From Archangium violaceum (lineage in GTDB: Bacteria; Myxococcota; Myxococcia; Myxococcales; Myxococcaceae): 64,000 bases of DNA. Positions 5,878-62,497 of the stretch are shown piece after piece. The position numbers and the translations under genes are program-made. The first letter of the stretch is position 1. The number at the start of each line of letters is the position of its first letter. The notes beneath the pieces were generated by a model, which worked only from the letters and a program-made list of their open reading frames with translations, had not been told where the DNA came from and ran no database searches. The stretch spans positions 1,701,001-1,765,000 of the forward strand of contig NZ_CP069396.1 of assembly GCF_016887565.1 (NCBI RefSeq), in the 5' to 3' direction.

Positions 5878-5885
5878 TGTCCGTC

Positions 5886-7097: not shown

Positions 7098-7138
7098 AAT
7101 GGATTCTCCAGGGGTGGAAGGAACGGAGGTGGAGCCGC

Positions 7139-8535
<1,397 letters not shown>

Positions 8536-10166: not shown

Positions 10167-10202
10167 GTGAAGAGGCAGATAACTCTCCGTTCGGGTCCTT
10201 CC

Positions 10203-10631: not shown

Positions 10632-10640
10632 AGGCCGTAC

Positions 10641-10656
10641 TGGCCCGCCGTGTGCG
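10641..10656 (+). promoter_or_regulatory. Weak candidate sigma-54 promoter
   Basis: TGGCCCGCCGTGTGCG keeps GG and GC in register with the -24/-12 consensus but has several mismatches. It would leave a leader of about 165 bases before the cytochrome gene. In GC-rich DNA chance matches of this quality are expected, so this is tentative. Confidence 0.2.
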
Positions 10657-10831
10657 GCCCGGTGGGCTCCCCCGAGGTTTCCACGTTCCGCCACCGCCCG
10701 GAGCTCCGGGCTCGCGAGGTTCCGCCGTGACGCAGTGGCGGGAACATCGGGCCCCGGGTGACTCGCCCCAGCAGACCGCTCGCGGTTGAGATAGCGTCTG
10801 CGTACCCTCTCGCCCGCGCCTCCCCCCTCGT

Positions 10832-44563: not shown

Positions 44564-44584
44564 GGGGCCGGGGCGAGAGGGCTC

Positions 44585-44995: not shown

Positions 44996-45102
44996 GATCG
45001 GACCTCCAGGGAGGATGCGACCAGTCTAGCGAGGGTTGGTCCGCCCGCGAGGGGTGCGACAATGGCTCTGTCGGCTGGTGGAGCGTGTTAATTTTCGACG
45101 AG

Positions 45103-46386: not shown

Positions 46387-46390
46387 CCAC

Positions 46391-46438
46391 CCATCCCCCA
46401 CCCACCCCTCTCCCTCCGGGAGAGGGACGGGGTGAGGG
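46391..46438. repeat. REP-like palindromic element
   Basis: The core CCCTCTCCC-TCC-GGGAGAGGG at 46406-46426 has a 9-bp stem, flanked by CCCACCC on the left and GGACGGGGTGAGGG on the right. It has the form of the short palindromic repeats scattered in many proteobacterial genomes and may terminate the radical SAM gene. The truncated HlyD gene reads into it. Confidence 0.65.
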
Positions 46439-46797
46439 TATCCGTTCCCGTCCAGCAGGGGAGCGCGGGTTGCGCGCTCCAGTGTCGGCGTGTCGATGAG
46501 GGCGAGCAATTGATCCTTCTCTACGACATCGCCCTCCCGCACCAGGAGGCGCATGAGCGGCCCAGCGGCCCGCGCCCGGATGTCGACCCGGTCCTTCGCC
46601 GCGACGGTCCCGTTGGCATGGACCGCTTCGACCGCCATGCCCCGCACCACCTGGACGGCGACCAGCCGCCGAGGGTGCAGCCTCCAGTAGAGGAGCCCTC
46701 CCGCCAGGATGACCCACCTTCCTCGCGGCCTGCGCTTCCATACAGCGACGCGGGCCGGCTGAGGGACATCGATGGGCAGAGCGTTGGGCATATCCAT
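46439..46797 (-). pseudogene. Truncated HlyD-type membrane fusion protein
   Basis: From ATG 46797, about 110 residues look like the start of an HlyD/MacA-type adaptor: basic N-terminus, membrane anchor (WVILAGGLLYWRL), the beta strand GTVAAKDRVDIRARAAGPL and the biotinyl-lipoyl-like hinge LLVREGDVVEKDQLLALID. The normal coiled coil and beta-barrel (about 200 residues more) are missing. After TPTLERA the frame runs into the REP-like repeat (PHPVPLPEGEG), which is not protein-derived. It follows the MFS gene on the same strand and may be its decayed partner in an EmrAB-like efflux system. Confidence 0.7.
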
Positions 46798-46948
46798 GGT
46801 CTTGGCCTGTCACGGGTGGGGGGACGCCGCGCCTGCCTTTCCGCCGGGAGCGGCCCACCTGGAACAGGAGCTGCCCCGGACCCGCTGCAATACCCCCTAC
46901 GAAATCCGCTCCGGGGGCGATGAAGTGGTTGTACGTGGCCGTGGATGG

Positions 46949-48406
46949 CTATTCTCCGCGTGAATCCCCATGTGCCTTGCCTCCAAGGGCAAGGCTGACC
47001 AGGCCGGCGGCAAGTGAGATGAGGCCCATGAAGATCCAGCCCGCGCGGAACTGCATCTCCGCCGGCTCTCCCGTCGACGGCCGGCTGAGCAGGACGATCA
47101 AGATGGCCACGCCAAGGACCCCTCCCAACTGGCGGCTCGTCACGTTCACTGCGCTGCCGACGGCAAAGCGCGCCGGCGGCAGCGCCAACATGGAGGCGCT
47201 GGAGAGCGTCGGGAAGGCCATCCCGACGCCTGCACCCATGAGCAACGAGCCAGGGAGCCAATGCCTGACGTAGGCCACCTCGGGGCCAACGCGCAGAATG
47301 AGCCAGGCGGCGCCGACCGCGAACACGACCGTGCCGGTCACCACAATCCAGCGGTGGCCGAAGCGATCCGCCAGCACTCCGGCTGGCCCTGCGACGACCG
47401 CGGCGGCGATCGGCGTTGTCGTGATGGCCAGCCCCGCGGTCAGCGGCGGGTAGTGCCAGACCGAGGTAAGGAACAGGACGTACCCGAGCAGAGCGGAGAA
47501 GAACGCCGCGGAGAACAACAGGGTCGCGAGGTTGGCGATCGTGAAGGAGCGTATCCGGAAGAGCGAGAGATCGAGCACGGGAGACGGGTGCCGCGCGCAG
47601 CGCCAGATCAGCAGCGGAAACAGCCCTATCACGCCTGCCAACGAGGCGAGCCGGCGCGGGTCGAACCAGGGATATGCGGCGCCCTGGATGATCCACAGCG
47701 CGAACAGGCCCACCGTCGCGATGGCGGCCAGCACGCCGACCAGATCGGGCCAGTGCACGGCGTCCGGGTCACGGGACTCGTCGAGGACCTTGCGGCCCCA
47801 CAGCCACGCGAAGAGCCCCACGGGCAGGTTGATGAAGAAGGCCCAGCGCCAGTTGGCCCATTCGAGTAGAGCGCTCCCCAGGATGGGCCCCAGTGCCGAG
47901 GCGAGCGCCGCGATGGCGCCCCATAACCCGATCGCAGTGGCGCGCCGCGAGACCTCGAACGCGGGAAGGAGCAACGCCAGCGATGCGGGGATGAGCGCCG
48001 CCGCCCCGATCGCCTGAAGGGCCCTGGCCGCGATGAGCAGTGATGCCGTCGGCGCGAGACCGCAGAGCCCCGATGCCAACGTGAAGAGGTTCAGCCCGAT
48101 GAAGAAGACCCGGCGCCGCCCGACGAGATCCGCCACGCGACCCGCGCTGACCAGCAGCGCGGCGAACACGATGAAGTAGGCGTTGAGCACCCAGGACAGG
48201 GCCACCTGCGTCGTGCCGGGAAAGGTGCTTTGTATCGCCGGGAAGGCGACGTTGACGATCGTCGTGTCCAGGGAGACCATGAACACGCCGAGCGACGTGA
48301 TCAGCAGAACCCTCCGCCGCTGGCTGCGCGCGGTGCGGACCCTGGGCCCGCTCACGGAGGCCGCGACAGGGGAGCCAAACGTTGTCTCAAGGCTGGGATG
48401 CTTCAC
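46949..48406 (-). CDS. MFS drug exporter, DHA2 (EmrB/QacA) family
   Basis: About 485 residues with 14 membrane segments. The DHA2 motifs are visible: FMVSLDTTIVNVAFP in helix 1, GRVADLVGRRRVF after helix 2, and GPILGSALLEWANWRWAFFINLP (motif C then D1). Such exporters use proton motive force to expel hydrophobic compounds. The GTG at 48406 is preceded by GGAGGG five bases upstream; this leaves 43 bases after the previous gene, whereas a reading from 48517 would overlap it. As the last intact gene of the cluster's left transcript it is the likely product exporter or self-resistance. Confidence 0.9.
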   Translation of the reverse strand: MKHPSLETTFGSPVAASVSGPRVRTARSQRRRVLLITSLGVFMVSLDTTIVNVAFPAIQSTFPGTTQVALSWVLNAYFIVFAALLVSAGRVADLVGRRRVFFIGLNLFTLASGLCGLAPTASLLIAARALQAIGAAALIPASLALLLPAFEVSRRATAIGLWGAIAALASALGPILGSALLEWANWRWAFFINLPVGLFAWLWGRKVLDESRDPDAVHWPDLVGVLAAIATVGLFALWIIQGAAYPWFDPRRLASLAGVIGLFPLLIWRCARHPSPVLDLSLFRIRSFTIANLATLLFSAAFFSALLGYVLFLTSVWHYPPLTAGLAITTTPIAAAVVAGPAGVLADRFGHRWIVVTGTVVFAVGAAWLILRVGPEVAYVRHWLPGSLLMGAGVGMAFPTLSSASMLALPPARFAVGSAVNVTSRQLGGVLGVAILIVLLSRPSTGEPAEMQFRAGWIFMGLISLAAGLVSLALGGKAHGDSRGE

Positions 48407-48449
48407 CGGTTCCCTCCAGCGCCAGGACGTCTCCTCGACGTCCAATGAA

Positions 48450-49637
48450 TCAGCCACGGCTGCACGCCTGGCGCCACTTGCCTCGTGGATTCCTGAACAA
48501 GGATTTAGCTGGCGCATCAGCGCTCGCTTCCATCTGCTTGTGGACTTGCTGGGTGCGATAGCGGTTCATCCACGCCCGCTGCAGCGGCAAGCTCAACCGA
48601 ACGCCCAGATTGTACCCCTTCACGTAGATGAACTGGTCCTCCAGGCGGCCTCCCATCCTCACCTTCGGCGTGTACGTTGTCTGGCCGAGGTATGAGAGGG
48701 GAATCCCGCGTTCGATGGCGCGGATGATACAATAGTAGTTCAAGACATTATAGATGACCGGGCTCTCCTCATCCGTGTAGTCGATGCCGATCCTCTTGTT
48801 CAGCTGTTGCTCCGCGTTGTAGAGGACGAGGTAGGCGCCGACGATGCGGGAGCCCTTCTCGCAAAGGACCATCTCGGAGCTCGGGGGGTGGGCGCGGCCG
48901 CACTCGACGAAGAACTGAGGAGGGAGCTCTTCCAGCTTGAACTGAGCCTTCATGTATGTGGCTCGGAAGAGCGGGTACACGTCAGGGATGAGGGAGGCGA
49001 AGTCCGTCACCACGCGCAGGGTGAAGTTCTTGCCCACCTTGCGGAGCGTCCGCCGAGCGTGGCTGCGCCCGTTCGTGCTCAGGCTCTGGATGTAGTCATC
49101 CGACGACTTGAAGTGGGTATCGATCCTCACTGTCGGCAGTGAGTAGCATTCGACGAAGCCGGCGGCGCGCACGCGCACGCGGCCCGGGAAATCCTGGTGC
49201 AGATCCTTCAGGAAGCAGACCTGGACCTTCTCCTCCCGGGCCAGGGCGTCAATCTCCCGGATCATCAATTCGATGACCGCGTCGTGGTCGCAATCAGGGT
49301 GGAGCGGGATGAAGCCCCGGTCCGAGACGAGAGAGCCGACCACCGCGATCTTGTAAGCGGCGGCGAGGCCCAGACGGTCGACGAGTGCCGGATAGCCGGT
49401 CTGAACCAGGGTCGGCATGGCGGCGGTGAACGCGATGTTCGTTCCGATATTGACCGGAATGAACGCCAGGACCCTTCCCCCCTCTTCGATGCTGAGATAG
49501 CGGATCTTGAGGTCTCCCCATAGCGAACGCTCGAGCGCCCGCAAGAGGCCGTACGAGAAATCGATCGGCGAGCCCTGCAGCGGGGCGATCCGGTCCGGAC
49601 CGATCTCATCGATTGACTGGTACACTGCGCAATGCAT
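48450..49637 (-). CDS. FemAB/GNAT-like transferase
   Basis: 395 residues. The two-part GNAT-like fold of FemAB-like proteins is suggested by ending features such as SYLGQTTYTPKVRMGGRLEDQFIYVKG and a basic middle segment (SHARRTLRKVGKNF). Members of the family transfer aminoacyl groups from aminoacyl-tRNA to amines, or acyl groups to other substrates. In the valanimycin pathway the VlmA enzyme performs a seryl-tRNA-dependent acylation of a hydroxylamine; whether this protein is a relative must be checked by search. The start is ATG 49637 with AGAGG seven bases upstream. It is divergent from the heme-oxygenase-like gene and leads the MFS exporter by 43 bases. Confidence 0.7.
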   Translation of the reverse strand: MHCAVYQSIDEIGPDRIAPLQGSPIDFSYGLLRALERSLWGDLKIRYLSIEEGGRVLAFIPVNIGTNIAFTAAMPTLVQTGYPALVDRLGLAAAYKIAVVGSLVSDRGFIPLHPDCDHDAVIELMIREIDALAREEKVQVCFLKDLHQDFPGRVRVRAAGFVECYSLPTVRIDTHFKSSDDYIQSLSTNGRSHARRTLRKVGKNFTLRVVTDFASLIPDVYPLFRATYMKAQFKLEELPPQFFVECGRAHPPSSEMVLCEKGSRIVGAYLVLYNAEQQLNKRIGIDYTDEESPVIYNVLNYYCIIRAIERGIPLSYLGQTTYTPKVRMGGRLEDQFIYVKGYNLGVRLSLPLQRAWMNRYRTQQVHKQMEASADAPAKSLFRNPRGKWRQACSRG

Positions 49638-49903
49638 GAAGCGGCCTCTTTCCAATCCGTTGCAGGAGCGCTGTCGTCTGCCTGCTGTATGGGTGAGCGC
49701 GGGCGCTGCACCGCCCAGGAAAACCTAACCTGCGTCCCCGGTCGCCGCTCCGCAAAATGGATCCACGCCATGTCGTGAGCCCGGTAGCGGTTCTAGATTG
49801 TGCGAGGAAGAGGGATTTTCGGCGAGTAAAAACATGTTGCCAATATGAGGGCCCATTTGGGAATCGCCGCCTGCTGTGTTTCAAGGACGAAGGAGTGGTG
49901 TCA

Positions 49904-50614
49904 ATGGAAGCGGATCTTGGCACGAGCAGCGCTGTGGTGACGTTCGCCGATGAGCTCGCGGCGTACATCCAGCCTTTCCGGCAGGCAGTGATCAACTGCT
50001 CCTTCCTGAGGCAAGCCGCGACGGGCTCGCTCTCGCTCAGGCATTGCCGCGCGTGGGTCTCGCAGCAGTACCATTACGTCAATCAGTTCCCGGCGTGGCT
50101 GGGCATGCTGCTGCGCAAGGTCGACAACCCCGAGTGCCGGGACGCTCTCATGATCAATCTCTACGAGGAGCGCACCCACCCGAAGCTCTGGATGCGCTTC
50201 GCAACAGCCTGGGGCTTGTCGGAAGAGCAGATCGTGACCACCGAGCTATGTCCCGAGATGCAGGCGCTCAACGACTACCTCAGCCGGCTCGCGTTCGACG
50301 GGCACGTCGCCGAGGCCGGAGCGGCGCTGTGCATGGGCCTGGAGGGCATCTCCAAGAACATCATCGAGTCCGTCGGCCCCGCCCTCTTCCAATACTACAA
50401 CGGGCGCGAAGGCGTGGCGCTCGACAAATCCTCGCTGGCGTGGCTGACGGTGCACTCCGACGTCGACCCGCAGCACGTCCACGAGGGCGCGCTCCTGGTC
50501 AATCGCTATGCCACGACCCCCTCGGTGCAGGCCAAAGCGAAGTTCGCCGCTCGTCGCGCGCTCGAGTTCCTCCAGTTGGGGTTCGACGGTGTTCATCGCC
50601 GCTACGGCGCCTGA
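49904..50614 (+). CDS. Heme-oxygenase-like diiron oxidase (HDO/TenA-like)
   Basis: 236 residues, all-helical, of the heme-oxygenase-like fold. Candidate metal ligands are Glu88/Glu89 and His92 (YEERTH), Glu147 (GLEG), and a His/Asp cluster near His184, Asp188, His191 and His193 (HSDVDPQHVH). That is the pattern of HDO enzymes such as UndA, SznF and RohS, which N-oxygenate amines or cleave C-C bonds, rather than of heme degraders or thiaminases. In this cluster a role in N-hydroxylating the alkylamine, or in chain desaturation, is plausible. ATG 49904 has AGGAG eight bases upstream. It is the only cluster gene on the plus strand, divergent from the FemAB-like gene. Confidence 0.75.
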   Translation: MEADLGTSSAVVTFADELAAYIQPFRQAVINCSFLRQAATGSLSLRHCRAWVSQQYHYVNQFPAWLGMLLRKVDNPECRDALMINLYEERTHPKLWMRFATAWGLSEEQIVTTELCPEMQALNDYLSRLAFDGHVAEAGAALCMGLEGISKNIIESVGPALFQYYNGREGVALDKSSLAWLTVHSDVDPQHVHEGALLVNRYATTPSVQAKAKFAARRALEFLQLGFDGVHRRYGA

Positions 50615-50851
50615 CGAGCGCGGGGGAGGGCTGTCGAAATCGGAGGTGTATGCGATAACGAAGATGAAATGATTTAGATCTGGTGCCGCGGCATGCGGCT
50701 TTACTGGATTGATCCTCTTCTTGTGCGGCACCGTGGGAATCAAAACCGGCCGCGGTCCCGCCTGGCCAGCGCGGTCTCGTACCAAGGTCGCCCCGATGTA
50801 GATGAGGAGCGCCGCGGGGAGGTAGATCATGGTCACATCCTTGAGCCCGCC
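50615..50851. other. AT-richer gap with small hairpin
   Basis: 237 bases between convergent genes. A 5-bp stem (GCCGC-ggcat-GCGGC then TTT, about 50685-50702) is a weak terminator. On the minus strand a reading from 50836 starts with a hydrophobic stretch (MIYLPAALLIYIGATLV) but continues antisense into the HDO gene. I see no real gene. Confidence 0.4.
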
Positions 50852-51724
50852 TCACGCCGACTTCCCGAGCTTCTCGAGAAACCACTTCGCTGTCTCCTCC
50901 CAGGTCGGTTGCGATCGGTGGCTCAACACAAGCGACATGTGTGTCGCGGCTGAGACGCTCTTGAGAGTGTGGTCGGGGACGGGCGCCAGGTAGCGCTCGC
51001 AGCACTCTCTGAGACAGAGGAGGTCGTCCTTCTCGCCAACATAGGCCAGCACCGGCTGCCGGACCCGGGCTCGACCGGCCAGGTAATCGGCGCCATCGGA
51101 TTCGCGGAGGCAGCGGTCGGTCGCTGCCCAGCGATTGAAGTCGGCGACGAGCCCGAGCGCTTCATCGTCGGTGCCTGTGCGCATGAGGCGGGCGGGGTAA
51201 TGGCCAACCGTCCGGCTCACCAGGAGCCAGAGGGCCAGCAGGGTGCGCTTCTTGAACCAGCGCAGACGGGAGGGGTCGAAGCTTGGCACCCACACATTCG
51301 CCGCATAGAGCACGAGCGCGTCCACGGGGGCGTCCGGGTGCTGGCCAAGCCAGTGCAGGGCGGCATGCCCGGCCAAGCTGTGTCCGAGGACGCCGAGCCG
51401 GAGATCGGGGTGGCGGGCGCGCGCCCATGCCACCACGGCAGGCAGGTCGTGGTTGACGAGATCGTCGTAGGTCCACCGGCCGCCCGCCCCAGCAGTGGCG
51501 CCGCTCTGGCCGTGCCCACGGAAGTCGAATGTGTAGACATGCAGCCCAGCCATGGCGAGCGCGCTGGCGAGCCCCTTGCCCGGCGGACGGTCGAGGGTCG
51601 ATCGGTTGCACATCATCGCGTGACCCAGGACGACCACGCCGCGCGCATCACCGATCGCGGGAAACTCGGAGGCCGCCAGCATGAAGTCGCTCGTCGTGCG
51701 GATCCGATGTACTTGCTCGTTCAT
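50852..51724 (-). CDS. Alpha/beta hydrolase
   Basis: 290 residues with the alpha/beta-hydrolase fold: oxyanion region VVVLGHAMM, strand 4-5 TFDFRGHGQSG, nucleophile Ser in LGHSLAGHAA, an acidic residue in YVGEKDDLLCLREC, and a late His (SAATHMSLVL). The substrate is unknown; thioesterase, esterase or amide hydrolysis in the cluster are all possible. ATG 51724 has GGAG seven bases upstream. It is probably the last gene of the main cluster operon, 24 bases after the flavoprotein gene. Confidence 0.85.
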   Translation of the reverse strand: MNEQVHRIRTTSDFMLAASEFPAIGDARGVVVLGHAMMCNRSTLDRPPGKGLASALAMAGLHVYTFDFRGHGQSGATAGAGGRWTYDDLVNHDLPAVVAWARARHPDLRLGVLGHSLAGHAALHWLGQHPDAPVDALVLYAANVWVPSFDPSRLRWFKKRTLLALWLLVSRTVGHYPARLMRTGTDDEALGLVADFNRWAATDRCLRESDGADYLAGRARVRQPVLAYVGEKDDLLCLRECCERYLAPVPDHTLKSVSAATHMSLVLSHRSQPTWEETAKWFLEKLGKSA

Positions 51725-51748
51725 GAATAACTCCACACTTCTACAATT

Positions 51749-52879
51749 CTACAGCTTATTGAGCGGCTCACCGGCAAGGTAACCCGCGAGCGCGGCGCCG
51801 CTGCTGAGCCGCGATGGCGGATGGAACGCCAGCGCGCGGGAGGCCCCCATGAGGTAAGCCACCTCGGGCGAGCTGATGAATGCCATTCCACCCAACACCT
51901 CGGCCGCGAGCATGGTCGCCCGTTCGATGGCCGACTGCACTGCATAGCGCACGAGGAGCGCCCGGGGCAGGAGCTCCGGCTTGGGCTCGCCCATCATCGA
52001 GCGCGCGACGCTCTCGAGCGCCTCCATTGCCGCCTCGACCTCGATCCCCAGGAGGGTCCGCTCCGTGGCCCCGCCCTTGCCGGCGACGATGACGCGCTCG
52101 ACCAGGCCGCTGGCGGTGCCGAGGTAGGAAGCTGTGACGAGCAGCTGGAACCACAGGTAGCCTGCGACTTCGACCGAATCGAGGTGGTCCTCGGCGTCCG
52201 GAAAGAACAGGCAATCCCCGGGGATCGGCACGTCGTTGAGGATCACCTCGTCGCTCTCGGCGCCCGTGATGACAGAGCTCCGCCAGAACGGTCGGCGCTC
52301 GAGGCCAGGAGAGTCCGCGGGGACGAGCACGACCGCCCTGCGCGAGCCCCCGCCCGAGGGATTCTGGATCATGACGCTCGCGCTCAGCAGATCCATCGAG
52401 TACGTGAGCGAGCACGGCTTCTTGCTTCCGCTGATGAGATAGCCCCCGTCGGGCGTCGCCCGTGCCTGCATCGTCGCGGCGAGGATGTGCGCGCCGCTGC
52501 GGCCCTCGGCGAAGCCCGAGGCCATGAACAGGTTGTCCTCCGCGATGGCGGAGAGCACGGCGGCGCCCGAATCATCGGCACCAAAGACGCCAAACTCCAC
52601 CAGCGTCGCGATCGAGAAGTTGTGCATGGTCGCCACCACCGCCAGAGAGGGTGAGCGGCTTCCGAGGGCGCGTTGAACGCGCACGGCCTGCAGCGGAGTG
52701 GCTCCTTTGCCGCCCAGGTCGCGTGGGATGACGAGGGCAGGCCCTCCGGCCGCCCGGAACAGGCTGATGCAGGGATTGCCCGGGCGCTCCAGCTCCGCCA
52801 GGGGAATCGCCGCCAGTGTTTCATCCAGGCCGGGAAGCAACTCGGCCAACGTTGCTCGTTCTCTCTCCAAGAGGCCCAT
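51749..52879 (-). CDS. Acyl-CoA dehydrogenase-fold flavoprotein
   Basis: 376 residues with acyl-CoA dehydrogenase landmarks: mixed helical N-terminus, FMASGFAEGRSGAHILAATM and YLISGSKKPCSLTYSMDLL in the beta-barrel, and the C-terminal helical bundle ending in AEVLGGMAFISSPEVAYLMGASR. This fold also houses class D flavin monooxygenases (the isobutylamine N-hydroxylase VlmH, DszC) that use reduced flavin from a partner. I cannot tell by eye which chemistry applies; in an alkylamine pathway either N-hydroxylation or desaturation of the chain fits. No separate flavin reductase is in the window. AAAGGTG precedes the ATG by six bases. Confidence 0.83.
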   Translation of the reverse strand: MGLLERERATLAELLPGLDETLAAIPLAELERPGNPCISLFRAAGGPALVIPRDLGGKGATPLQAVRVQRALGSRSPSLAVVATMHNFSIATLVEFGVFGADDSGAAVLSAIAEDNLFMASGFAEGRSGAHILAATMQARATPDGGYLISGSKKPCSLTYSMDLLSASVMIQNPSGGGSRRAVVLVPADSPGLERRPFWRSSVITGAESDEVILNDVPIPGDCLFFPDAEDHLDSVEVAGYLWFQLLVTASYLGTASGLVERVIVAGKGGATERTLLGIEVEAAMEALESVARSMMGEPKPELLPRALLVRYAVQSAIERATMLAAEVLGGMAFISSPEVAYLMGASRALAFHPPSRLSSGAALAGYLAGEPLNKL

Positions 52880-52885
52880 GGATGT

Positions 52886-53995
52886 TCACCTTTCAATCAC
52901 AGCATGAGGTCCACCCGGGATGAGCCTCATGGCGATCGAGCGCGCGGAGACGGCGTCAAGGACCCGTGCCAGGAACGCGTCGGGAGGCGGACAGGTGACG
53001 CCGAGCGGCTCAAGCAGGTTCCTGGCCAGAAAACCGTCGAACACGCTTCGCTGGTGGAGGTAGGGCTTGAGTGAGCTCCAGCGACCGGGAAACGCCGCCA
53101 CCCGGCCGAAGCTCAAGCGGCTGAGCAGCCGCGCTAGGGACGCCAGGAGTGGAGGCAGAAACCCGAGCTGGGCGGTGCGGCAACGGGTCTGCACCATCTC
53201 GACCAGCTCCCGCAGCGTCCAGGACTTCTCCCAGCCTGCGACGAGGTGGCACGTCCTTCCGGCGGCCCCCGGGTGGTCTGCCAGGGCCACCGCTCCCTCG
53301 GCCAGATACTCCATGGGAATGACGTCCACGCGGATGCGCGGATCCCCCGAGACCAGGATTCGCCACCCGCCGAGCAACGATTGAATGACGGATTCGAGCG
53401 TCATCGTCCCCGCGGTGACTCCGCGCTGGGGCCCGCCCAGGGCCAGGCTTCGCCTGACCACGGTGACCCGCCCGGAGATGGAGGAGTCCCGTAGAAGGCG
53501 CTCCGCCTCGTGTTTGCTCTGCTCGTAGGCGTTGTAGAAGCCCTGCCCGCAATCCAGATCGAACTCCGTGAACAGGCCCCTCTTCGTCCCCGCGACCCAA
53601 GTGGTCGACAAGTGGACGAGCCGGGCGCCGCGAGCCTTCTCGAGCAGCGCGATCAAGGTGCGCACCGGCTGGACGTTCCCCTCCCGCGCCTTCTCGAGGT
53701 CCTGGTCGATTTCAGCTCGCTCGGCGCAGTGGAAGATGGTGTCGACGGTGGCGCAGAGATCGTCGAACGCCCATTCGTCCAGCCCGAGCCGGGGAAGCCG
53801 CACGTCGCCCGAGAGAGGCAGCACCTCCTGGGCCTTCGCCGCCGCGGAGGAGCGGGCGCTTGCCAGGGAGGGCGGCGGGCTCGCCACGCCCTGCGAGAGC
53901 AGGTAGATGCGGGCGATGTCGTGCCTCTCCACCAGGAGCTCGAGGACTTGAGCTCCCACGGCGTTGGAGGCGCCGGTGAGCAGTACGTTTTTCAT
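52886..53995 (-). CDS. NAD(P)-binding SDR, thioester-reductase-like
   Basis: 369 residues: Rossmann motif TGASNAVG at the N-terminus, an extended short-chain dehydrogenase catalytic pair Tyr-x3-Lys (NAYEQSKHEAE), the strand VHLSTTWVAGTKRG, and a C-terminal helical region typical of NAD_binding_4 (thioester reductase/male-sterility) members. It would reduce an acyl thioester, or oxidise or reduce an alcohol on the product. The ATG at 53995 is best because AAGGG lies six bases upstream; an ATG at 54001 overlaps the upstream stop (ATGA). Tightly packed, six bases before the flavoprotein gene. Confidence 0.8.
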   Translation of the reverse strand: MKNVLLTGASNAVGAQVLELLVERHDIARIYLLSQGVASPPPSLASARSSAAAKAQEVLPLSGDVRLPRLGLDEWAFDDLCATVDTIFHCAERAEIDQDLEKAREGNVQPVRTLIALLEKARGARLVHLSTTWVAGTKRGLFTEFDLDCGQGFYNAYEQSKHEAERLLRDSSISGRVTVVRRSLALGGPQRGVTAGTMTLESVIQSLLGGWRILVSGDPRIRVDVIPMEYLAEGAVALADHPGAAGRTCHLVAGWEKSWTLRELVEMVQTRCRTAQLGFLPPLLASLARLLSRLSFGRVAAFPGRWSSLKPYLHQRSVFDGFLARNLLEPLGVTCPPPDAFLARVLDAVSARSIAMRLIPGGPHAVIER

Positions 53996-53997
53996 GC

Positions 53998-54993
53998 TCA
54001 TCCCTTGAAGGATATGGATGAAAAGCCCTGGCCGGCCGCATTGGCGGGCATGAGCCCCATGTAGGCGAGCCGTGTCCTCTGCATCGCGCCCGCCCATTCC
54101 ATCTGGAGCTCGAGTCGCTCCTCCACACCGGTGTCGATAAGCCGCCTGCCCCGGACGATCTCGTAGTCCTTGAGGAACTCCGCGTGCTCCTGGATCCCCT
54201 GCTGAAACAACACTTCGCGACGCACGATGACATCGCGGATCGGCACCGTCTTCCAGAGTTCCATCCCCTGGCCGACCAGGGCGAGGAGGCGGGGGCGATC
54301 CTCCGGGTGCTTCAGGAGGTGGTCTCGTATGATGGCGCTGCCGACGCAAAGATGGCGGACCTCGTCGATGTTGGCGCCTCGGGCGGTCTGCGCTGCCGGC
54401 GGGTCGAGGAGCCTCCACTTGCGCTCGCTCAACTCCGACGCGGGGGCGAGCACACCCTCCACGATGACGGTCAACATCAGGACGCCGACGATGAAATCGT
54501 CCCGCCCTCCCACCGTGTCGAGGGCGAACTTCTCGAGCGGCACGAGCACGCTGTCGCGCTTGTCCCCCACGAATTCATCGATGAGCTTGGGGACGTCACT
54601 CTCCGCGATACCCAGATCGACAAGGTGACGGCGGAACACCGCGGCGTGGCGCGCCTCGTCGAGCAATTGTGTGGCGTAGAAGTCCATCGTGGCCGCGGTC
54701 GGCGCCGTGCGGACAAGATGAGTGATCGCGCGCGTGCCCATCTCCTCGGAGACGGTTCGAAAGGCGAACTCTTCCAGGATGGCGGACCGCAGCGGGCCAG
54801 GTTCAAGGAGGTATGGAGGGACGGTTGCGTCGGGCAGATGCCCATGAACCTGGCCGAGCAGCGTCCCCTGGACCACCGCCTGCAGCCAGTATTCCATGCC
54901 GCACTCGTCCGGAGTGAGCTCCAGCTTCATGGACCCTTCGAGGAGGTCGGGCGCTGCCTCCCAGTCAGTCTCGTTGCCGGTGGATATATTCAT
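53998..54993 (-). CDS. Ferritin-like diiron oxygenase
   Basis: 331 residues, helical. Candidate diiron ligands form two Glu-x2-His pairs, Glu113/His116 (DEARH) and Glu211/His214 (DEVRH), plus Glu83/84 and Glu179, the pattern of ferritin-like oxygenases such as the AurF and VlmB-type proteins. Such enzymes oxidise nitrogen centres; in the valanimycin pathway the VlmB protein (with VlmO) is linked to the azoxy step. The start at ATG 54993 (MNISTGN) has AAAGAGGTG eight bases upstream. Its stop overlaps the SDR start region. The neighbour upstream encodes a small membrane protein that may be its partner. Confidence 0.8.
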   Translation of the reverse strand: MNISTGNETDWEAAPDLLEGSMKLELTPDECGMEYWLQAVVQGTLLGQVHGHLPDATVPPYLLEPGPLRSAILEEFAFRTVSEEMGTRAITHLVRTAPTAATMDFYATQLLDEARHAAVFRRHLVDLGIAESDVPKLIDEFVGDKRDSVLVPLEKFALDTVGGRDDFIVGVLMLTVIVEGVLAPASELSERKWRLLDPPAAQTARGANIDEVRHLCVGSAIIRDHLLKHPEDRPRLLALVGQGMELWKTVPIRDVIVRREVLFQQGIQEHAEFLKDYEIVRGRRLIDTGVEERLELQMEWAGAMQRTRLAYMGLMPANAAGQGFSSISFKG

Positions 54994-55061
54994 GAAGAAA
55001 ACACCTCTTTCTTGTATCCAATGACAGGCGAGCGGTCTCCGATCGGCAGGCTCGCCGCCGT

Positions 55062-55526
55062 CTACCACCGTCCCTTTTTCTTGTACTCAGCCAGGAACCG
55101 TTGGAAGTCCTTGAAGGTTACTGGCTCGAACGAGAGCCCGAGGGGCTTGTAGATGTTGCCAAAGAGCGCTCGATCCCCGCAGAGGTGAATGGGGGCGGCG
55201 AGCATCGCCCACTCCCAGCCACCGTGAAGCACGACCCACACCAGCGTCACGACCACGTTGGTCCCGACGCTGTGGCAGGTGTTGTAAAGAAAATAAAATA
55301 TCGGGTGGATGCTGCGGTGCTCACCGGAGCGGCGCAAGTAGTAGACGTAATAGGCTGGGAGCACGCCCACCAGATCGATCCAGGCAAAGGCGATCACGAA
55401 CGGCAACCACCGCACCTCCCTCGCGTGGACCAGCACCAGCGTGCTGCAGAAGATGAGGAGGACGAGGTAATCCAGGCGCACCAGATTGTAGGTCGCTCGG
55501 GTATGAAATGTATTGTGCTTGTCCAT
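55062..55526 (-). CDS. Small polytopic membrane protein
   Basis: 154 residues with four hydrophobic segments (about 17-36, 40-62, 76-99, 103-119). Conserved-looking polar residues lie near or within the membrane (NTCHS, IHLCGDR, EHRSIHP), which suggests a metal, heme or catalytic role. No family recognised by eye. It lies between the megaenzyme and the diiron protein and is probably functionally linked to the latter; the pairing recalls VlmB with the membrane protein VlmO. The start is ATG 55526 with GGAG five bases upstream. Confidence 0.7.
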   Translation of the reverse strand: MDKHNTFHTRATYNLVRLDYLVLLIFCSTLVLVHAREVRWLPFVIAFAWIDLVGVLPAYYVYYLRRSGEHRSIHPIFYFLYNTCHSVGTNVVVTLVWVVLHGGWEWAMLAAPIHLCGDRALFGNIYKPLGLSFEPVTFKDFQRFLAEYKKKGRW

Positions 55527-55551
55527 GCGAGCTCCAATCTGAGTTTGAATC

Positions 55552-58500
55552 TCAGGGATGGCTGTTGGCGACCTTCGGGGGCCATGTCGTGCGCGTCAAG
55601 GCGGCAACCTTGAATCCATGCAGATCGGCGAGCTGGCGCATGAGCCTGAGCCCCGCCACGTCGATGTTCGCGCCGAGGCTCATGTGGGCGTACCGCTGCT
55701 CCAGGGCCAGCATCATCGTCTCGGCCATGCACGCATAGGTCAGGCCCGGATCCAGATCGAAGCTCCCGATGTCGGGCCTCCCTGGGATCTCGATCACGCC
55801 GCCGTCGATGACCAGGACGTCGGGCCGCGCCTCCTGGACCTCCCGGCCCACATTCCTCGGACGAGAGAGATCGCACACCAGCGCGTTCTGTCCCAGGTGG
55901 TGGGGCTTCACGAGGGCTGTGGTGGCGTTCGTGGCGAGGATCACGACATCCGCGAGCGGGAGGACCTCGCCCATGCCGTAGGCAACCAGGAAGAGGCCAT
56001 CACGCTCCATCTGCTCTGCCATGACCGTGAGCTCTTCTTGCGACAAGTCGGGGGACCGCAGGAGTCCTGAGGTCAGCATCCTGTGCGCCAGAGTGCCTCT
56101 GCGAAACACGACGTTGCGGCTCGCCTCGACGGCGAGGTAGCGGCACGCCTCCCCGGCGACGCGGAGGAGCTGGCTCCGGCTATGCTCCTTGCCGTGGAGC
56201 GGGTTGCCAATGAGGATCAGCAGGGAGGCGTCCTCCGCCATGAGGATCGCCGTGGCGCGTCCGATCGCGCCGGCAGCGCCGACAACAGCCACGGCCGGCG
56301 CGGTGACCTCCGGGCGCCAGGTACGCTGAGCCAGGCGCACGCCCTCCAGCGCTGACACCGCGGTGAATGTGTTGCCGGTGGTCACGGCGACGTCGCTCTC
56401 CGCCACCGTCAAGCCACCGTGGGTCACGATCGACGTGAAGGCCCCCAGCCCGACGATTCGAGCCCCGCGCCCGCGAGCGAGCTCCACGGCGCCACGCACC
56501 TCCTTCGCGGCAGCCTCGCGAGGCATCGCCATCAGCTCGTCAGCGGTGCGCCTGACGAGGATGAACTCGCCATAGGCGGAGCGCCCACTCTTCGCCACGA
56601 TCCGGGTCTCGCCCACGATCGCGGGCTTGCCCGTGCCGTGAACGATCTTGGCCGCGTTCTCCAGATCCGCGGCGCCAACCGTGGCCAGCGTGGAGTCGAA
56701 GCTGGCGTAGCTGCGCAGATCGAGTGGGTGCAGGATGAAGGCGAAGCGACCCTCGTCTGGGCGTGGCTGGATCGGCGCACGGGGCATGGTGCGCGCCATG
56801 ACCTCCGGCGCGCTTCGCGGAGCTCTGCTCAGGATCGAGCCGAGGACCCGGCCCGTGTCTCCCGTGTCGAACACCGCGAGGGCCCGCTCGAGCGCGCCGA
56901 GCACGACCTCACACTGCTGCCATGTGGCCGTGAGCGGAGGCTCGATGCGTAGGACGTCGGTGCTGTTCAGCGTCGGGGCGATGCGCACGCCCTCGACGTT
57001 GAGGAGATAGCTGGCGAAGATCGGCGCGAGGCCGCCCTCCTCGGCGGCGAGAGCGAGGATGCTCGACGGCCAGGTCCGACGATTGACGCCGAGCTGGATG
57101 CCGAGGAAATAGCCCCGCCCGCGGATCTGGCTGATCAACCTCGGATAGCGGCGCTGTAACTCGAGCAGCGCGCCCTTGAGCCGGGCTCCGTTCTCCGCGA
57201 CCTGCTTGACCAGGGCGAAGTTGTCTCGCTCCAGGAGCTCGAGCGTGGCCAGCCCCGCCTCGCAGGCCAGCGTGCCTCCAGCGAACGTGGACGAATGCTT
57301 GAGCGCGAAATCCTCGCTGTAGGCTTCCTCCGAAGAAATGCAGGCGCCTATGGGAAACAGCCCCCCGCCGAGCGCCTTGGCCAGCGCCATTACGTCCGGC
57401 TCCACGCCTTCCGCGCTGCTCGCGAAGAGCGTCCCCGTCCGGCCGAGCCCGGTCTGGACCTCGTCGAAGACCAGGAGCACCCCCGCCTCCCGGCAGAGCT
57501 TCTTGGCTGCGGCGAGATAGCCGACCGGCGGTTCGACAATGCCCCCCTCGCCTTGAATCGGCTCCACGACGAAAGCCGCATAATAGGCGGGCCTCTCCAG
57601 GAGAGCGTCCCGGAGCGCCTCGATATCCCCGAAGGGTATGCCGTGGAAGAACGGTACCGGCGCGCCGAAGTTGTGCTGGTATCTGGCGTTCCCGGTGGCG
57701 GACAGCGCGCCCAGGGTCTTGCCGTGGAAGCTGCCGGCGGTGGACAGGATCCCGAGGCGCCCCGTGTTGGTGCGGCACAGCTTGATCGCGGCCTCCACCG
57801 CCTCGGTGCCGCTGTTGGCGAACGTGACGTACCGCAGCCCCGAGGGTGCCACGCCGATGAGGCGGCGTGCCAACTCTCCCGCGGAGGCGAGCAGCGAGGG
57901 CTGGACGAAGCCGGGCTTCTCGCTCTCCCTGGCCGCGAGCAGCGCCGCCCAGAGCTCCTTCGGGTTGTGGCCAAAGGGAAGCGCGCCGTACGAGGCCACG
58001 AAATCGAGGTAGTGCCGTCCCTCCGCGTCATACAGGTCACAGCCCGAGCCGCGGACGAAGCTCTTGTCGAGCTTGAACCGCTCGAGGAGCTTGCTCAGGT
58101 ACGGATTGAGGTACTCTGTATAGGGATGCCGGCGCGCCTCGGACGGGGCGAGCTCCCGGGTGTGATGGTGAGGGCGCCCCATCGAGACCGGCTCTCCCGC
58201 CAGATGGCGGGCCATGAGATCGATCGTCGGGAACTCCCAGATTAGCGTCGCCGGGATGGGGCGATCCAGAAAGGTCTCGAGCTCTCCGGCCAGCAGGGCC
58301 GCCTCCACCGAGTCGAGCCCGAGGTCTGTGAGGCGCGATGTGCGCTCGATGTGCGTCGTCGGAAGGCCGAAGCCATGGCTCACATAATCGATGAGCCATC
58401 GCTCGATCTCCGCTGCCGTCTTGCCCGCGGTGGTCGTGCCAACCTCTTCATTCCGCGGCGCCGGCTCCCGAGCGGCGGCCCCCGTCAGCGCGCTCCGCGC

Positions 58501-60261
58501 GATCTCGCTCAGCGTTCCGGCGAGGAATCCCTCTCGGCAGGCGCCCCGCTGGATCTTCCCGCTGGACGTCTTGGGGATGGTGCCCGGCATGATGAGCACG
58601 ATGTTGTCGACCCGGATCTCGTGGACCTCGGCGATTGCTCGCTGGATCGCAAGCAGGGCCTCCTGGGTGTCCCCGTCTCCATCGACTCCCTTGGCAAGCT
58701 CCGCCACCACCACGAGCCGTTCAGACTCCGCTCCTTTCGGGTTCGTTCGTGGCTGGGATTCCAGGGAGAATGCGGCGCAGCAGCCGCGCCGGATCCGCGG
58801 ATGGCAGCTCTCCACGGTCGCCTCGATGTCCTGAGGATGGTGGTTGCGGCCACGAATGATGACGAGATCCTTGAGCCGCCCGGAGACGATGAGCTCGCCG
58901 TCGTGGAGGAACCCGAGATCTCCGCTGCGCAGGAACTTCCGCCCGTCGTGGTGCGCCGGCGTTGAAACCAGCTCGGCATGGAACGTCGCGCTCGTCTCCT
59001 CGGAGCGGCCCCAGTAGCCTCGCGCCACACTCGGGCCCGAGATCCAGATCTCGCCGATCTCGTGCTCGCCGCAAAGGGTACCGGAGTCTGGGTTGACGAC
59101 GACCACCTCGAACCCGGGGCCTGCGGCGCCGGAGCCGACGAGCTCGATGCGCTCCACTGCGTCAGGTGACACGGCGACGGCGCGCTTCTGCTCGTAGGCG
59201 GGCTTGCTGAAGGAGTGCACTCGAAAGCCAGTCTTCCTCGAGGCGCCCGTCACGAAGAGCGTAGCCTCCGCCAATCCATAGCAGGGGAAGAAAGCCTGGC
59301 GGTCGAACCCGCAGGAGCCAAACGTCTCCGCGAACACGTCGAGGGTCCGCTCGCGGATGGGCTCCGCGCCCACGAACGCCACTTCGAGACAACCGAGGTC
59401 GAGCGTGGCCCGCTGCTCCTCCGAGACCTTGCGGGAGCAAAGCTCGTACGCGAAGTTCGGTCCCCCGGTCACGGTGACGCGATGGCGCGAGATGGCGCTG
59501 AGCCAGGAAAAAGGACGGCGCATGAAGTGCATCGGAGACATCAGGACGAGCGGCGCGCCCACATAGATGGGGACGAGGATCGAGCCGATCAGCCCCATAT
59601 CGTGGTAAGGCGGCAGCCAGCTGGCGACCCGATCTTTATCGCTCATGCCGAAGCAGCGGCGCATCACCTCCAGGTTCTCCACCAGGTTGCCGTGGGTCAG
59701 CATCACCCCTCTCGGGTCGCGCGTGGTCCCGGAGGTGTACTGCAGAAACGCCAACGACGACTCCGTCAACTCAGGCCCGACGTAGCTGCGCTCCGCGCCG
59801 TCGATCGAGTCGGTGGCGACCCACTGCGGCGCGCCGAACTCGTTGTCTCCGAGGAAGAGCTGCTCCGCCATGGCCAGGATTGACGATGTCGTGAGGGCCA
59901 GCGTCGGCTGTGAGTCCTTCAGGATGGACTTGAGCCGGGGCAGGGTTCGCTCGAGGCGAGTCGGGTCGGGTGGATACACCGGCACCGCGACCAGCCCGGC
60001 ATAGAAGCAGCCAAAGAACGCGATGATATAATCCAGGCCCGCAGGATAAAGCAGGAGGGCCCGATCGCCGGGCGCGGCGAGGCCTTGCAGGATGGAAGCT
60101 GTCGCGCGCGCGCGCCGATCCAGCTCACCGTACGTGATATGCGCCTCCTGGCCGTCGCCTTCCTCGAGGAACGTGCACGCGACCCTGTCGACCTCGGTGA
60201 GGGCTCTGCGTTTGACGACATCGACCAGATTCTGCGTCGAATGAAAATCAGTCTGCATCAT
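55552..60261 (-). CDS. Tetradomain enzyme: fatty acyl-AMP ligase, ACP, class III aminotransferase, acyl-ACP reductase
   Basis: About 1569 residues in four parts. (1) Fatty acyl-AMP ligase, about 1-600, with the FLQYTSGTTRDPRGVMLTHG P-loop and QAFFPCYGLAEATLFV. (2) Acyl carrier protein, about 605-690, carrier Ser651 in LGLDSVEA. (3) Class III aminotransferase, about 700-1150: YDAEGRHYLDFVASYG, FANSGTEAVEAAIKL, VFDEVQTGLGRTG, and PLP Lys962 in LAKALGGG. (4) Acyl-ACP reductase of cyanobacterial AAR type, about 1175-1569: GLGAFTSIVTHGG, TTGNTFTAVSALEG, Rossmann VVGAAGAIGRATA, and thioester Cys1511 in YACMAETMM. Predicted sequence: fatty acid, acyl-AMP, acyl-ACP, aldehyde, primary alkylamine. The start is ATG 60261 or 60258; no good ribosome site. 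Confidence 0.9.
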   Translation of the reverse strand: MMQTDFHSTQNLVDVVKRRALTEVDRVACTFLEEGDGQEAHITYGELDRRARATASILQGLAAPGDRALLLYPAGLDYIIAFFGCFYAGLVAVPVYPPDPTRLERTLPRLKSILKDSQPTLALTTSSILAMAEQLFLGDNEFGAPQWVATDSIDGAERSYVGPELTESSLAFLQYTSGTTRDPRGVMLTHGNLVENLEVMRRCFGMSDKDRVASWLPPYHDMGLIGSILVPIYVGAPLVLMSPMHFMRRPFSWLSAISRHRVTVTGGPNFAYELCSRKVSEEQRATLDLGCLEVAFVGAEPIRERTLDVFAETFGSCGFDRQAFFPCYGLAEATLFVTGASRKTGFRVHSFSKPAYEQKRAVAVSPDAVERIELVGSGAAGPGFEVVVVNPDSGTLCGEHEIGEIWISGPSVARGYWGRSEETSATFHAELVSTPAHHDGRKFLRSGDLGFLHDGELIVSGRLKDLVIIRGRNHHPQDIEATVESCHPRIRRGCCAAFSLESQPRTNPKGAESERLVVVAELAKGVDGDGDTQEALLAIQRAIAEVHEIRVDNIVLIMPGTIPKTSSGKIQRGACREGFLAGTLSEIARSALTGAAAREPAPRNEEVGTTTAGKTAAEIERWLIDYVSHGFGLPTTHIERTSRLTDLGLDSVEAALLAGELETFLDRPIPATLIWEFPTIDLMARHLAGEPVSMGRPHHHTRELAPSEARRHPYTEYLNPYLSKLLERFKLDKSFVRGSGCDLYDAEGRHYLDFVASYGALPFGHNPKELWAALLAARESEKPGFVQPSLLASAGELARRLIGVAPSGLRYVTFANSGTEAVEAAIKLCRTNTGRLGILSTAGSFHGKTLGALSATGNARYQHNFGAPVPFFHGIPFGDIEALRDALLERPAYYAAFVVEPIQGEGGIVEPPVGYLAAAKKLCREAGVLLVFDEVQTGLGRTGTLFASSAEGVEPDVMALAKALGGGLFPIGACISSEEAYSEDFALKHSSTFAGGTLACEAGLATLELLERDNFALVKQVAENGARLKGALLELQRRYPRLISQIRGRGYFLGIQLGVNRRTWPSSILALAAEEGGLAPIFASYLLNVEGVRIAPTLNSTDVLRIEPPLTATWQQCEVVLGALERALAVFDTGDTGRVLGSILSRAPRSAPEVMARTMPRAPIQPRPDEGRFAFILHPLDLRSYASFDSTLATVGAADLENAAKIVHGTGKPAIVGETRIVAKSGRSAYGEFILVRRTADELMAMPREAAAKEVRGAVELARGRGARIVGLGAFTSIVTHGGLTVAESDVAVTTGNTFTAVSALEGVRLAQRTWRPEVTAPAVAVVGAAGAIGRATAILMAEDASLLILIGNPLHGKEHSRSQLLRVAGEACRYLAVEASRNVVFRRGTLAHRMLTSGLLRSPDLSQEELTVMAEQMERDGLFLVAYGMGEVLPLADVVILATNATTALVKPHHLGQNALVCDLSRPRNVGREVQEARPDVLVIDGGVIEIPGRPDIGSFDLDPGLTYACMAETMMLALEQRYAHMSLGANIDVAGLRLMRQLADLHGFKVAALTRTTWPPKVANSHP

Positions 60262-60356
60262 GGCCACTTGTTTCTGATCAGGCGTTTCTCATATCCAAAC
60301 AGCCATGGCTGGGCGACCTGGGGCCATCGCCGATAAATAAGAGCAGAATCGATGCT

Positions 60357-60821
60357 TTAGCCCTCAGCGCGACCGAACCGGTGCTCGACACGATCCAGGA
60401 ACTTGCCGATATCCTTCCTGACCTCGCGCGCGACGATCGGCTTGAAGAGCTTGGCCATCAGGTTGGTAATGGGCAGATCGGGGGCGAGCATCTCACGGAA
60501 GCGGATCTCGGTGTTCGGCGCGTCCAGCTGGCGCAGGATGACTTCGCCCTGGGTATCAAGATTCCCGTCGATCGTGCGCCATGTCACGTGGTCGGTGCCG
60601 TTGCCGTGGTACTCGACAGTATAGTCAGCCAGGTAGCGGATCCCCTTCTCGACCTTCTCGGTGAGGATCCAGTGCGCCCTGTTGCCCTCGAGAAGCTCAA
60701 ACCGCTCGACATCGGCGGTTTCCTCCTTGATGAGCCCGGGATCATTGAAAAACTGATAGACGTCTTTCAGCGGCGACCGAACCCGCAAGGTACGTTCCTC
60801 GGTAGCTACGATTTTCGTCAT
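60357..60821 (-). CDS. SRPBCC (START-like) lipid/polyketide cyclase-type protein
   Basis: 154 residues with the START/SRPBCC pattern: N-terminal strand, DVYQFFNDPG helix, and a long C-terminal helix (VAREVRKDIGKFLDRVEHRF). Such small proteins bind hydrophobic ligands or catalyse cyclisation and dehydration. It is the first gene of the main cluster operon, 95 bases before the megaenzyme. It could hold the alkyl-chain intermediate; function not readable. Confidence 0.75.
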   Translation of the reverse strand: MTKIVATEERTLRVRSPLKDVYQFFNDPGLIKEETADVERFELLEGNRAHWILTEKVEKGIRYLADYTVEYHGNGTDHVTWRTIDGNLDTQGEVILRQLDAPNTEIRFREMLAPDLPITNLMAKLFKPIVAREVRKDIGKFLDRVEHRFGRAEG

Positions 60822-61240
60822 GGGGTCCGTCCTCGATTCTTACTGCTGGGTTGTTGGTTGAAAACACCAGCTCCCATTCCGTGTGCGCACTCAGAGAGAG
60901 CAGGCCTCGGATGAATGTGATTGGTGAGCTGCCCATGTCCGCCCGACCCCCTCGTCGAGCCTCTCCCACGAGCGGGCGTGTGTCTGCCTGGTGACCGAGC
61001 ACCTTTATCGGCTACCAGGGCGAGCGCCTCGGCGAGGTGCGCTCGAGACGGCTCGCCGAGCTACGCGGTGACGGAAGGATGGAAGGCCTGTTGAGGGGGG
61101 CGGGCTGGAGCGCAGGGGCCCGAGGAGGGCCGCTGACAGGGGCCGCCCGAGCAGTGCGCCCGGTCGGTGGAGCCGGATCTCCGGATTCGCCCAGGGTTCG
61201 TGGGGCCACGCTATCAGGACGGCTAGTGTGCGGGCCCACG
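60822..61240. other. 419-base divergent gap at right edge of the cluster
   Basis: No convincing gene. The left part (60830-60890) is AT-richer and likely contains the cluster operon promoter. A 9-bp inverted repeat (CTCGGCGAG at 61028-61036, CTCGCCGAG at 61052-61060) may be a hairpin. No -24/-12 site was seen. Confidence 0.5.
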
Positions 61241-62497
61241 ATGCGCTTCAAGTTCGTCCACGCGGCCGATCTGCACCTGGATACTCCGTTCCGCGGCATC
61301 CCCGCGGACTCGAGTCTGTTGAGCCTCTTCCAACAGGCCACGTTCCGGGCCTTCTCGCGCGTGGTGGACCTGTGCCTGCGCGAGCACGTGGCCTTCCTGC
61401 TGCTGGCGGGAGACCTCTTCGACGCGAAGGACCGCTCGGTGCGCGCGAGGTTGGCACTGCGGCGCGAGCTGGACCGGCTGCACGTGGCTGGCATCCAGAC
61501 CTTCATCGTCCACGGGAACCATGACCCGCTGAGCGGAGACACGGGGGCGCTGGGGCTGCCGGGCTCGGTGAAGGTCTTCGGCGCCGACTGGGAGGAGGTG
61601 GAGGTGCGCCGCGAGGGGAGGGCGCTCTGCCGGGTGCAGGGCATCTCCTATCCGGAGGTGGAGGTGCGCGAGAACCTGTCGTCGCGCTTCCGGCGGACGG
61701 CACCGGACTTCACGGTGGGCCTGCTGCACGCGAACCTGGGCGGAGTGGAGGGCCATGCCAACTACGCGCCGTGCACGGTGGAGGACCTGGGGGCGCGCGG
61801 GCTGGACTACTGGGCGCTGGGCCACGTGCACACGCGGGCCGAGTACGCGCTCGCCAACGGAGCGGTAGCGGTGTACCCGGGCAACCCGCAGGGGCGGCAC
61901 GTGAACGAGCCGGGTGAGCGCGGCTGCGTGCTGGTGGAGGTGGAGGAGGGGAGGACGCGCAGGCGCTTCGTCCCGGTGGACCGGGTGCGCTGGCACCGGC
62001 TGGAGGTGCCGCTCGTGGGGCTCGGGTCACTGGATGGGCTCGTGGCGGCGGTAACGGAGCAGGTGGACGCGAGCTGCGCGCAGGAACTGGACGGGCACGT
62101 GGTGCGTCTCACGCTGACGGAGCGGGGCCCGCTGCACCGCGAGCTGTCCCGGCCGGAGGCGCTCCAGCAGTTGGAAGCGGACCTGCGCGAGCAGCTCTCG
62201 CGGCGTCACCCGCCGGTGCTGCTGGAGTCCCTGCGCGACGCGAGCCGGCCCGAGTTGGACCTCCAGACGGTGCGACTGGCGGGAGGCTTCACCGGGACGC
62301 TGCTGGCCGAGGCCGACGCCCTGGCCGCGGACCCGGAGGCGTTGGAGACGGTGTGGAAGGAGGACGCGGAACTGCGCTCGCTGCGCCAGCGCTTGTCGCG
62401 GCTGGGCGTGGACGCGCTGGAGAAACCCCGGCCGGAGTGGGTGGAGCAGGCGGGGCTGCGGGTGGTGGAGCAGCTCCACGAGGAGGACGAGACGTGA
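61241..62497 (+). CDS. SbcD/YhaO-type DNA repair metallophosphoesterase
   Basis: 418 residues. The calcineurin-like phosphoesterase core has HAADLHLDTPF, LLLAGDLFDAKD, VHGNHDPLSG and LGHVHTR, the five dimetal motifs of Mre11/SbcD exonucleases. The length and C-terminal partner-binding part fit YhaO-like proteins, which pair with a YhaN-type AAA protein; the next gene, overlapping by four bases, encodes one. ATG 61241 starts the conserved region; the frame is open upstream. Probable role: DNA end processing in repair. Confidence 0.88.
   Translation: MRFKFVHAADLHLDTPFRGIPADSSLLSLFQQATFRAFSRVVDLCLREHVAFLLLAGDLFDAKDRSVRARLALRRELDRLHVAGIQTFIVHGNHDPLSGDTGALGLPGSVKVFGADWEEVEVRREGRALCRVQGISYPEVEVRENLSSRFRRTAPDFTVGLLHANLGGVEGHANYAPCTVEDLGARGLDYWALGHVHTRAEYALANGAVAVYPGNPQGRHVNEPGERGCVLVEVEEGRTRRRFVPVDRVRWHRLEVPLVGLGSLDGLVAAVTEQVDASCAQELDGHVVRLTLTERGPLHRELSRPEALQQLEADLREQLSRRHPPVLLESLRDASRPELDLQTVRLAGGFTGTLLAEADALAADPEALETVWKEDAELRSLRQRLSRLGVDALEKPRPEWVEQAGLRVVEQLHEEDET

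Follow-up and report, generated by a model that had tools for sequence, protein, structure and literature searches.

The closest described systems are the azoxy biosynthetic pathways, for which PMC11705231 and PMC9379638 give the reference account, and the characterised azoxy clusters in the openly licensed PMC literature covered here come from Streptomycetaceae. In these systems, VlmO requires the mutagenesis-defined metal residues D51, H82, H110 and D114, VlmO and VlmB accept various chains, and characterised VlmB homologues make azoxy groups (PMC11705231). We analysed a 64,000-nucleotide stretch of the Archangium violaceum genome (the window; positions 1,701,001-1,765,000 of the 13.2 Mb single-contig source genome, G000), in which an island encodes clear orthologues of VlmH, VlmO and VlmB together with a multidomain megaenzyme and a FemAB-like protein. 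We consider that these genes form an aliphatic azoxy biosynthetic cluster working in a six-step order, with a probability of about 0.87; the enzyme family and the order of the steps are well supported. On this reading the aliphatic azoxy cluster has an amine-loading line that is new, and its aminoacyltransferase is probably non-orthologous.

A scan of 84,980 species genomes with a VlmB alignment gave 183 relatives, and a single-sequence query of the genome contigs gave none. The best 80 of the 183 were kept, and less similar relatives from other phyla could therefore have been overlooked; together with one further locus, L018, these 80 named loci make up the comparison set of 81 azoxy loci. 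The best 80 come mostly from Streptomyces and other Actinomycetota, plus two Acidobacteriota metagenome-assembled genomes (MAGs; loci L034 and L047). VlmH, VlmO and VlmB co-occur in nearly all of the 80 named loci, which are mostly from Streptomyces. The corresponding three proteins of the island match genes that lie side by side in five Streptomyces plasmid loci, with E values of 1e-31 to 1e-107. One of the five, L013, has the gene content of the valanimycin cluster (ilvC, ilvN, serS, the VlmA, VlmH, VlmO, VlmR and VlmB positions, and a pyridoxal phosphate (PLP)-dependent decarboxylase), and one of its products is labelled 'VlmB-like protein'.

The diiron protein of the island matches PDB entry 6d9f, 'Putative VlmB homolog', with E=6e-90 and, as a VlmB orthologue, shows 44-56% identity. 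Its residues E84, E114xxH117, E180 and E212xxH215, with two ExxH motifs, are invariant in all 82 sequences aligned. The membrane protein, as a VlmO orthologue, shows 35-51% identity and is 40-44% identical to the gene product encoded beside VlmB in the five plasmid loci, and its D51, H85, H114 and D118, invariant in 62 of 62 sequences, correspond to the four metal residues of VlmO. Its AF2 model is all-helical (pLDDT 83), and a fold search with this model returned no solved relative. The third protein, of the acyl-CoA dehydrogenase (ACAD) fold, is 40-46% identical to the protein at the VlmH position of the plasmid loci and 54% identical to those of L034 and L047, with which it groups in the ACAD (VlmH) tree (support 96/92); in the VlmB tree, the window protein falls in a polytomy. 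The ACAD-fold protein matches DszC-type enzymes with an E value of only about 1e-12. The first-pass annotation of this DNA had proposed an N-N (azoxy/hydrazine) cluster with these diiron and membrane proteins in the roles of VlmB and VlmO, and had named best matches outside N-N bond clusters as grounds against its own proposal. The best matches of both proteins fall within azoxy-type clusters, and the orthology and the invariant residues support both roles and, with them, the N-N/azoxy assignment.

The amine would be supplied by a single protein of 1571 aa. It comprises a fatty acyl-AMP ligase (FAAL) domain (residues ~1-600), an acyl carrier protein (ACP) domain with the serine in GLDSV (650-654), a class-III aminotransferase (AT; 738-1130) with the PLP lysine at position 964 in KALGGG, and an acyl-ACP reductase (AAR) domain (~1160-1571). 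In an alignment with cyanobacterial AAR, Cys1513 falls on Cys294. This cysteine is conserved as Cys296 in PigE, whose AAR and aminotransferase turn a thioester into an amine (PMC8341465). L034 has the same conserved domains, as does L047, where they are perhaps split. The active-site residues are intact, and the supply of a fatty alkylamine by an AAR-type megaenzyme, as proposed in the first-pass annotation, is supported. Separately, four actinobacterial azoxy loci (L060, L062, L064 and L049) have an NAD_binding_4 reductase beside an aminotransferase, and no aldehyde dehydrogenase was found in them; this might be a third alkylamine route.

The amino-acid-transfer enzyme of the island, as judged from its sequence, differs from those of all azoxy clusters compared except one, the Acidobacteriota cluster L034. 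No VlmA-type protein was found in the island, which encodes a FemAB-like double-GNAT protein. This protein cannot be equated with VlmA: the two show no blastp similarity, hhalign gives a probability of 0.4%, and their Pfam families differ (PF04339/PF13480 type versus PF09924), placing the FemAB-like protein on another branch of the GNAT/Fem fold. It scores just under the PF04339 cut-off (23.8 versus 27 bits), and its L034 orthologue passes both cut-offs. Among the 81 loci, only L034 encodes a homologue (50% identity), and no VlmA was found in the L034 stretch. L047 shares the FAAL/AT/AAR domains as well as VlmH/O/B, and a true VlmA lies about 1 kb outside its edge. That otherwise similar clusters have either VlmA or the FemAB-like protein is our principal reason for giving the latter the role of VlmA. 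In a Foldseek search, the top matches of its AlphaFold model are FemX (E 2e-7, probability 1.00) and the aminoacyl-tRNA-dependent synthases Sbb17 and Sba18; given the poor quality of the model, this lends support and is no proof. We conclude that the FemAB-like protein is probably a non-orthologous aminoacyltransferase in the place of VlmA. The first-pass view of it as an aminoacyl transferase holds in part: it is not VlmA, and its best matches lie outside actinobacterial N-N clusters, but it has one close relative in an Acidobacteriota azoxy cluster.

Several observations weigh against this assignment and against the pathway as a whole. The FemAB-like model has a pLDDT of 47, with a TM-score to FemX near 0.3; members of PF04339/PF13480 are mostly of uncharacterised function; the FemAB-like and azoxy genes occur together in two clusters only; and the absence of VlmA from the L034 MAG is weaker than an absence from a finished genome. 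The main gap concerns the flavin. The island has no VlmR-type flavin reductase, and the only PF01613 match of the source genome, at 12.88 Mb, is weak and partial, so a reductase of the host has to supply the reduced flavin. A flavin reductase was not found in the 20.9 kb of L034 either. VlmR is usual in Vlm-type clusters, though some loci are without it (L060-like stretches vary).

An alternative that we regard as unlikely accepts the N-N machinery and assigns the aminoacyl step to a distant LPG_synthase-type protein of the VlmA superfamily encoded elsewhere, with the FemAB-like protein doing other work, such as acyl or peptidoglycan-type transfer. The source genome does contain two remote VlmA-profile matches far from the cluster (E 1e-27 and 4e-22), but the open reading frames (ORFs) that contain them are long (891 and 591 aa), as lipid synthases of the MprF type would be. 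FemAB_like proteins are also common in the phylum, being present in 49 of 195 genomes with identities of at most about 33% to the island protein. Against this stands the 50% orthologue that L034, from another phylum, has inside its azoxy cluster; other FemAB_like proteins reach at most 31-33%.

With the FemAB-like protein as the transferase, the pathway would proceed as follows. FAAL would adenylate a fatty acid for loading onto the ACP, AAR (Cys1513) would reduce the thioester to an aldehyde, and transamination would give a fatty alkylamine (step 1). The VlmH orthologue would N-hydroxylate the alkylamine with host-supplied reduced flavin (step 2), and the FemAB-like protein would move an amino acid, probably from aminoacyl-tRNA, onto the hydroxylamine oxygen (step 3). 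The VlmO orthologue would then rearrange the O-aminoacyl hydroxylamine to a hydrazine (step 4), and the VlmB orthologue would carry out the four-electron oxidation of the hydrazine to an azoxy acid (step 5). The tailoring enzymes would complete the product and an EmrB-type pump would export it (step 6). Homology and residue conservation identify the enzymes of steps 1, 2, 4 and 5, whose predicted activities are those of characterised homologues; the transfer in step 3, like the amino acid, the tailoring and the end product, we infer.

It is improbable that the product ends at a hydrazine, hydrazone or azo compound, or that the amine is not fatty but short-chain or polyketide-derived. The tailoring enzymes could divert an intermediate, the FAAL sequence here does not predict chain length, and the tolerance of VlmO and VlmB for various chains would fit other amines. 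However, VlmB is present with all its invariant motifs and has azoxy-forming characterised homologues, and the combination of FAAL and AAR typically goes with acyl chains of medium or greater length.

The first-pass annotation had left the N-hydroxylase open between the ACAD-fold protein and a haem-oxygenase-like diiron oxidase (HDO), and of these only the ACAD-fold protein is retained. That the HDO is the N-hydroxylase is very unlikely, even though it has CADD/UndA-type motifs, some HDOs (SznF and CADD, for instance) are able to oxygenate nitrogen, no flavin reductase lies nearby, and the related cluster L018 has another diiron protein and no VlmH, because the ACAD-fold protein is the orthologue of a VlmH kept in nearly all azoxy loci and none of the 81 loci has an HDO homologue. 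Not being conserved with the azoxy core, the HDO is probably a tailoring enzyme. Iron-containing redox enzyme genes do occur near Streptomyces azoxy genes (L016:3650-4759 and L017:10064-11095); their products have no detectable blastp similarity to the window HDO.

Features of the island (window coordinates), with the putative assignment and its basis.
Feature	Position	Strand	Basis
HlyD/EmrA-type adaptor, N-terminal remnant	46454-46797	-	weak Biotin_lipoyl_2 match; truncated at left edge of island, beside EmrB-type pump
DHA2 (EmrB-type) major facilitator superfamily (MFS) exporter	46949-48517	-	TIGR00711 above cut-off
FemAB-like double-GNAT protein	48450-49655 (401-aa ORF); 48450-49637 with start at M7 by L034 alignment	-	Pfam, L034 orthologue
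HDO (CADD/UndA-type)	49757-50614, likely start near 49904	+	ligand-type motifs present
alpha/beta hydrolase (Hydrolase_4)	50852-51736	-	domain search
VlmH orthologue, ACAD-fold flavin N-hydroxylase	51749-52879	-	identity, tree
NAD_binding_4 (thioester/acyl reductase-type) short-chain dehydrogenase/reductase (SDR)	52886-54001	-	domain search; start overlaps VlmB stop
VlmB orthologue, diiron azoxy-forming oxygenase	53998-54993	-	PDB 6d9f, motif invariance
VlmO orthologue, polytopic membrane hydrazine synthase, 154 aa	55062-55526	-	identity, metal residues
FAAL-ACP-aminotransferase-AAR megaenzyme	55552-60267	-	domain searches, active-site residues
154-aa protein, tentatively SRPBCC-like	60357-60821	-	~25% alignment only

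The remaining genes of the island suggest further tailoring by the SDR, the hydrolase and the HDO. A 39% homologue of the SDR occurs in L034, fused to an alpha/beta hydrolase. The TIGR00711 match supports the MFS export proposed at first pass. The small 154-aa protein next to the megaenzyme has no Pfam or NCBIfam family and its PDB matches have E>0.2, so that an SRPBCC identity is not accepted as proven; an SRPBCC gene is present in actinobacterial alkylamine-type azoxy clusters. On the minus strand, the run of genes that starts with the megaenzyme and ends with the hydrolase has only small gaps, and this close spacing, with the overlap of VlmB and SDR, makes it resemble one operon. The HDO gene and the FemAB-like gene are neighbours and are divergently transcribed.

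A blastn comparison of the window with stretches from sister genomes delimits a 14,730 bp island (46454-61183), nearly equal to the interval of the first-pass annotation (46949-60821), all of whose named genes were found as intact ORFs. The flanks (44383-46453 and 61184-63587) lie 35 bp apart in sister genome G063, with 92-93% identity, and are likewise close together in G065; searches with the flanking genes found them nearly adjacent in two of five genomes of the genus. The island is thus missing from two sister species, and the contiguous flanks indicate that it was acquired in the source genome or lost in its relatives. At the same chromosomal site, G061 and G062 have about 5-6 kb of different DNA (G061:C1:11301919-11307243; G062:C1:11628785-11634821), which points to a hot spot for insertions. 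Neither a tRNA gene nor a clear flanking repeat was found at the island. Upstream of it, two PLP-dependent decarboxylase genes (PF00282; 39393-40904 and 43229-44563, plus strand) lie in a stretch partly common to the sister genomes.

A close VlmB occurs in only one of 195 genomes of the phylum, the source genome itself. Of 396 genomes from the phylum of L034, the one that contains L034 was alone in having VlmB (E <= 1e-20), which makes the cluster rare in that phylum. We found no azoxy natural product or cluster from myxobacteria or Acidobacteriota in the openly licensed PMC literature covered here. The novelty of this distribution is provisional, since VlmO/VlmB homologues from Acidobacteriota or myxobacteria may already appear in the genome surveys of Shi 2023, Zheng 2024 and Maleckis 2024. 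The earlier claim that such a cluster would be new in myxobacteria needs qualifying, as a second genome of the family has a more distant AT-AAR azoxy cluster, L018 (G146:C147:1-17662; 4788-7205, 8757-9614, 9614-10000 and 9997-10968). This second cluster has an AT-AAR fusion, VlmB (32%), VlmO (45%), a true VlmA and a diacylglycerol-kinase-like gene, and no VlmH; a rubrerythrin/AurF-like diiron protein adjoins its AT-AAR gene and might be an alternative N-oxygenase.

The VlmH/O/B core spans phyla with interchangeable front ends, here a one-protein fatty-amine line and an alternative aminoacyl transferase. We see an even chance of the following reading. For N-N bond formation, the FemAB-like protein would represent a second type of aminoacyl-tRNA:hydroxylamine transferase, recruited independently and common to the source genome and Acidobacteriota. 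The amino acid that it loads may be neither serine nor alanine, and its partner would be the one-protein line from fatty acid to amine, the two serving to make long-chain azoxy lipids outside Actinomycetota. If the FemAB-like protein acts as its position implies, it would add to the enzymes preparing N-N bond precursors and could be used directly to search slow-growing soil bacteria for azoxy lipids.

Compared with the valanimycin pathway (VlmH/R, VlmA, VlmO and VlmB), the island has orthologous VlmH, VlmO and VlmB, and the same order of chemistry is expected. The valanimycin amine arises by VlmD decarboxylation of valine, whereas the island has its fatty-acid megaenzyme; the FemAB-like protein stands against VlmA, and SerRS, VlmR, VlmJ and VlmK are not in the island. 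L014 and L015, Streptomyces clusters that by gene content we infer to be of the azodyrecin/elaiomycin/KA57-A type, share with the island the long alkylamine, VlmH/O/B and a class-III aminotransferase, but they have a separate aminotransferase, aldehyde dehydrogenase, KAS III and ACP, plus VlmA, in place of one FAAL-ACP-AT-AAR protein and a FemAB-like protein. PigE and TamH (prodigiosin and tambjamine) resemble the megaenzyme in the fusion of AAR to a class-III aminotransferase and in the conserved catalytic cysteine, but PigE has the reverse order, AAR then AT, and both are without FAAL, ACP and N-N chemistry. FemX, Sbb17 and Sba18, although the top structural matches of the FemAB-like model, have no significant sequence identity to it, nor does BD-12 Orf11, and its predicted acceptor is an alkylhydroxylamine. 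The Acidobacteriota MAGs L034 (JAFATB010000022.1) and L047 (CADEFT010000041.1) carry APH-type kinase and MmgE/PrpD genes, candidates for serine dehydration as in valanimycin; the island lacks both, so its amino-acid side chain is predicted to be kept, or not to be that of serine. L047 also differs in its true VlmA and flavin reductase. Both MAGs have FAAL/AT/AAR, VlmH, VlmO and VlmB as in the island, and L034 further shares the FemAB-like protein and the SDR.

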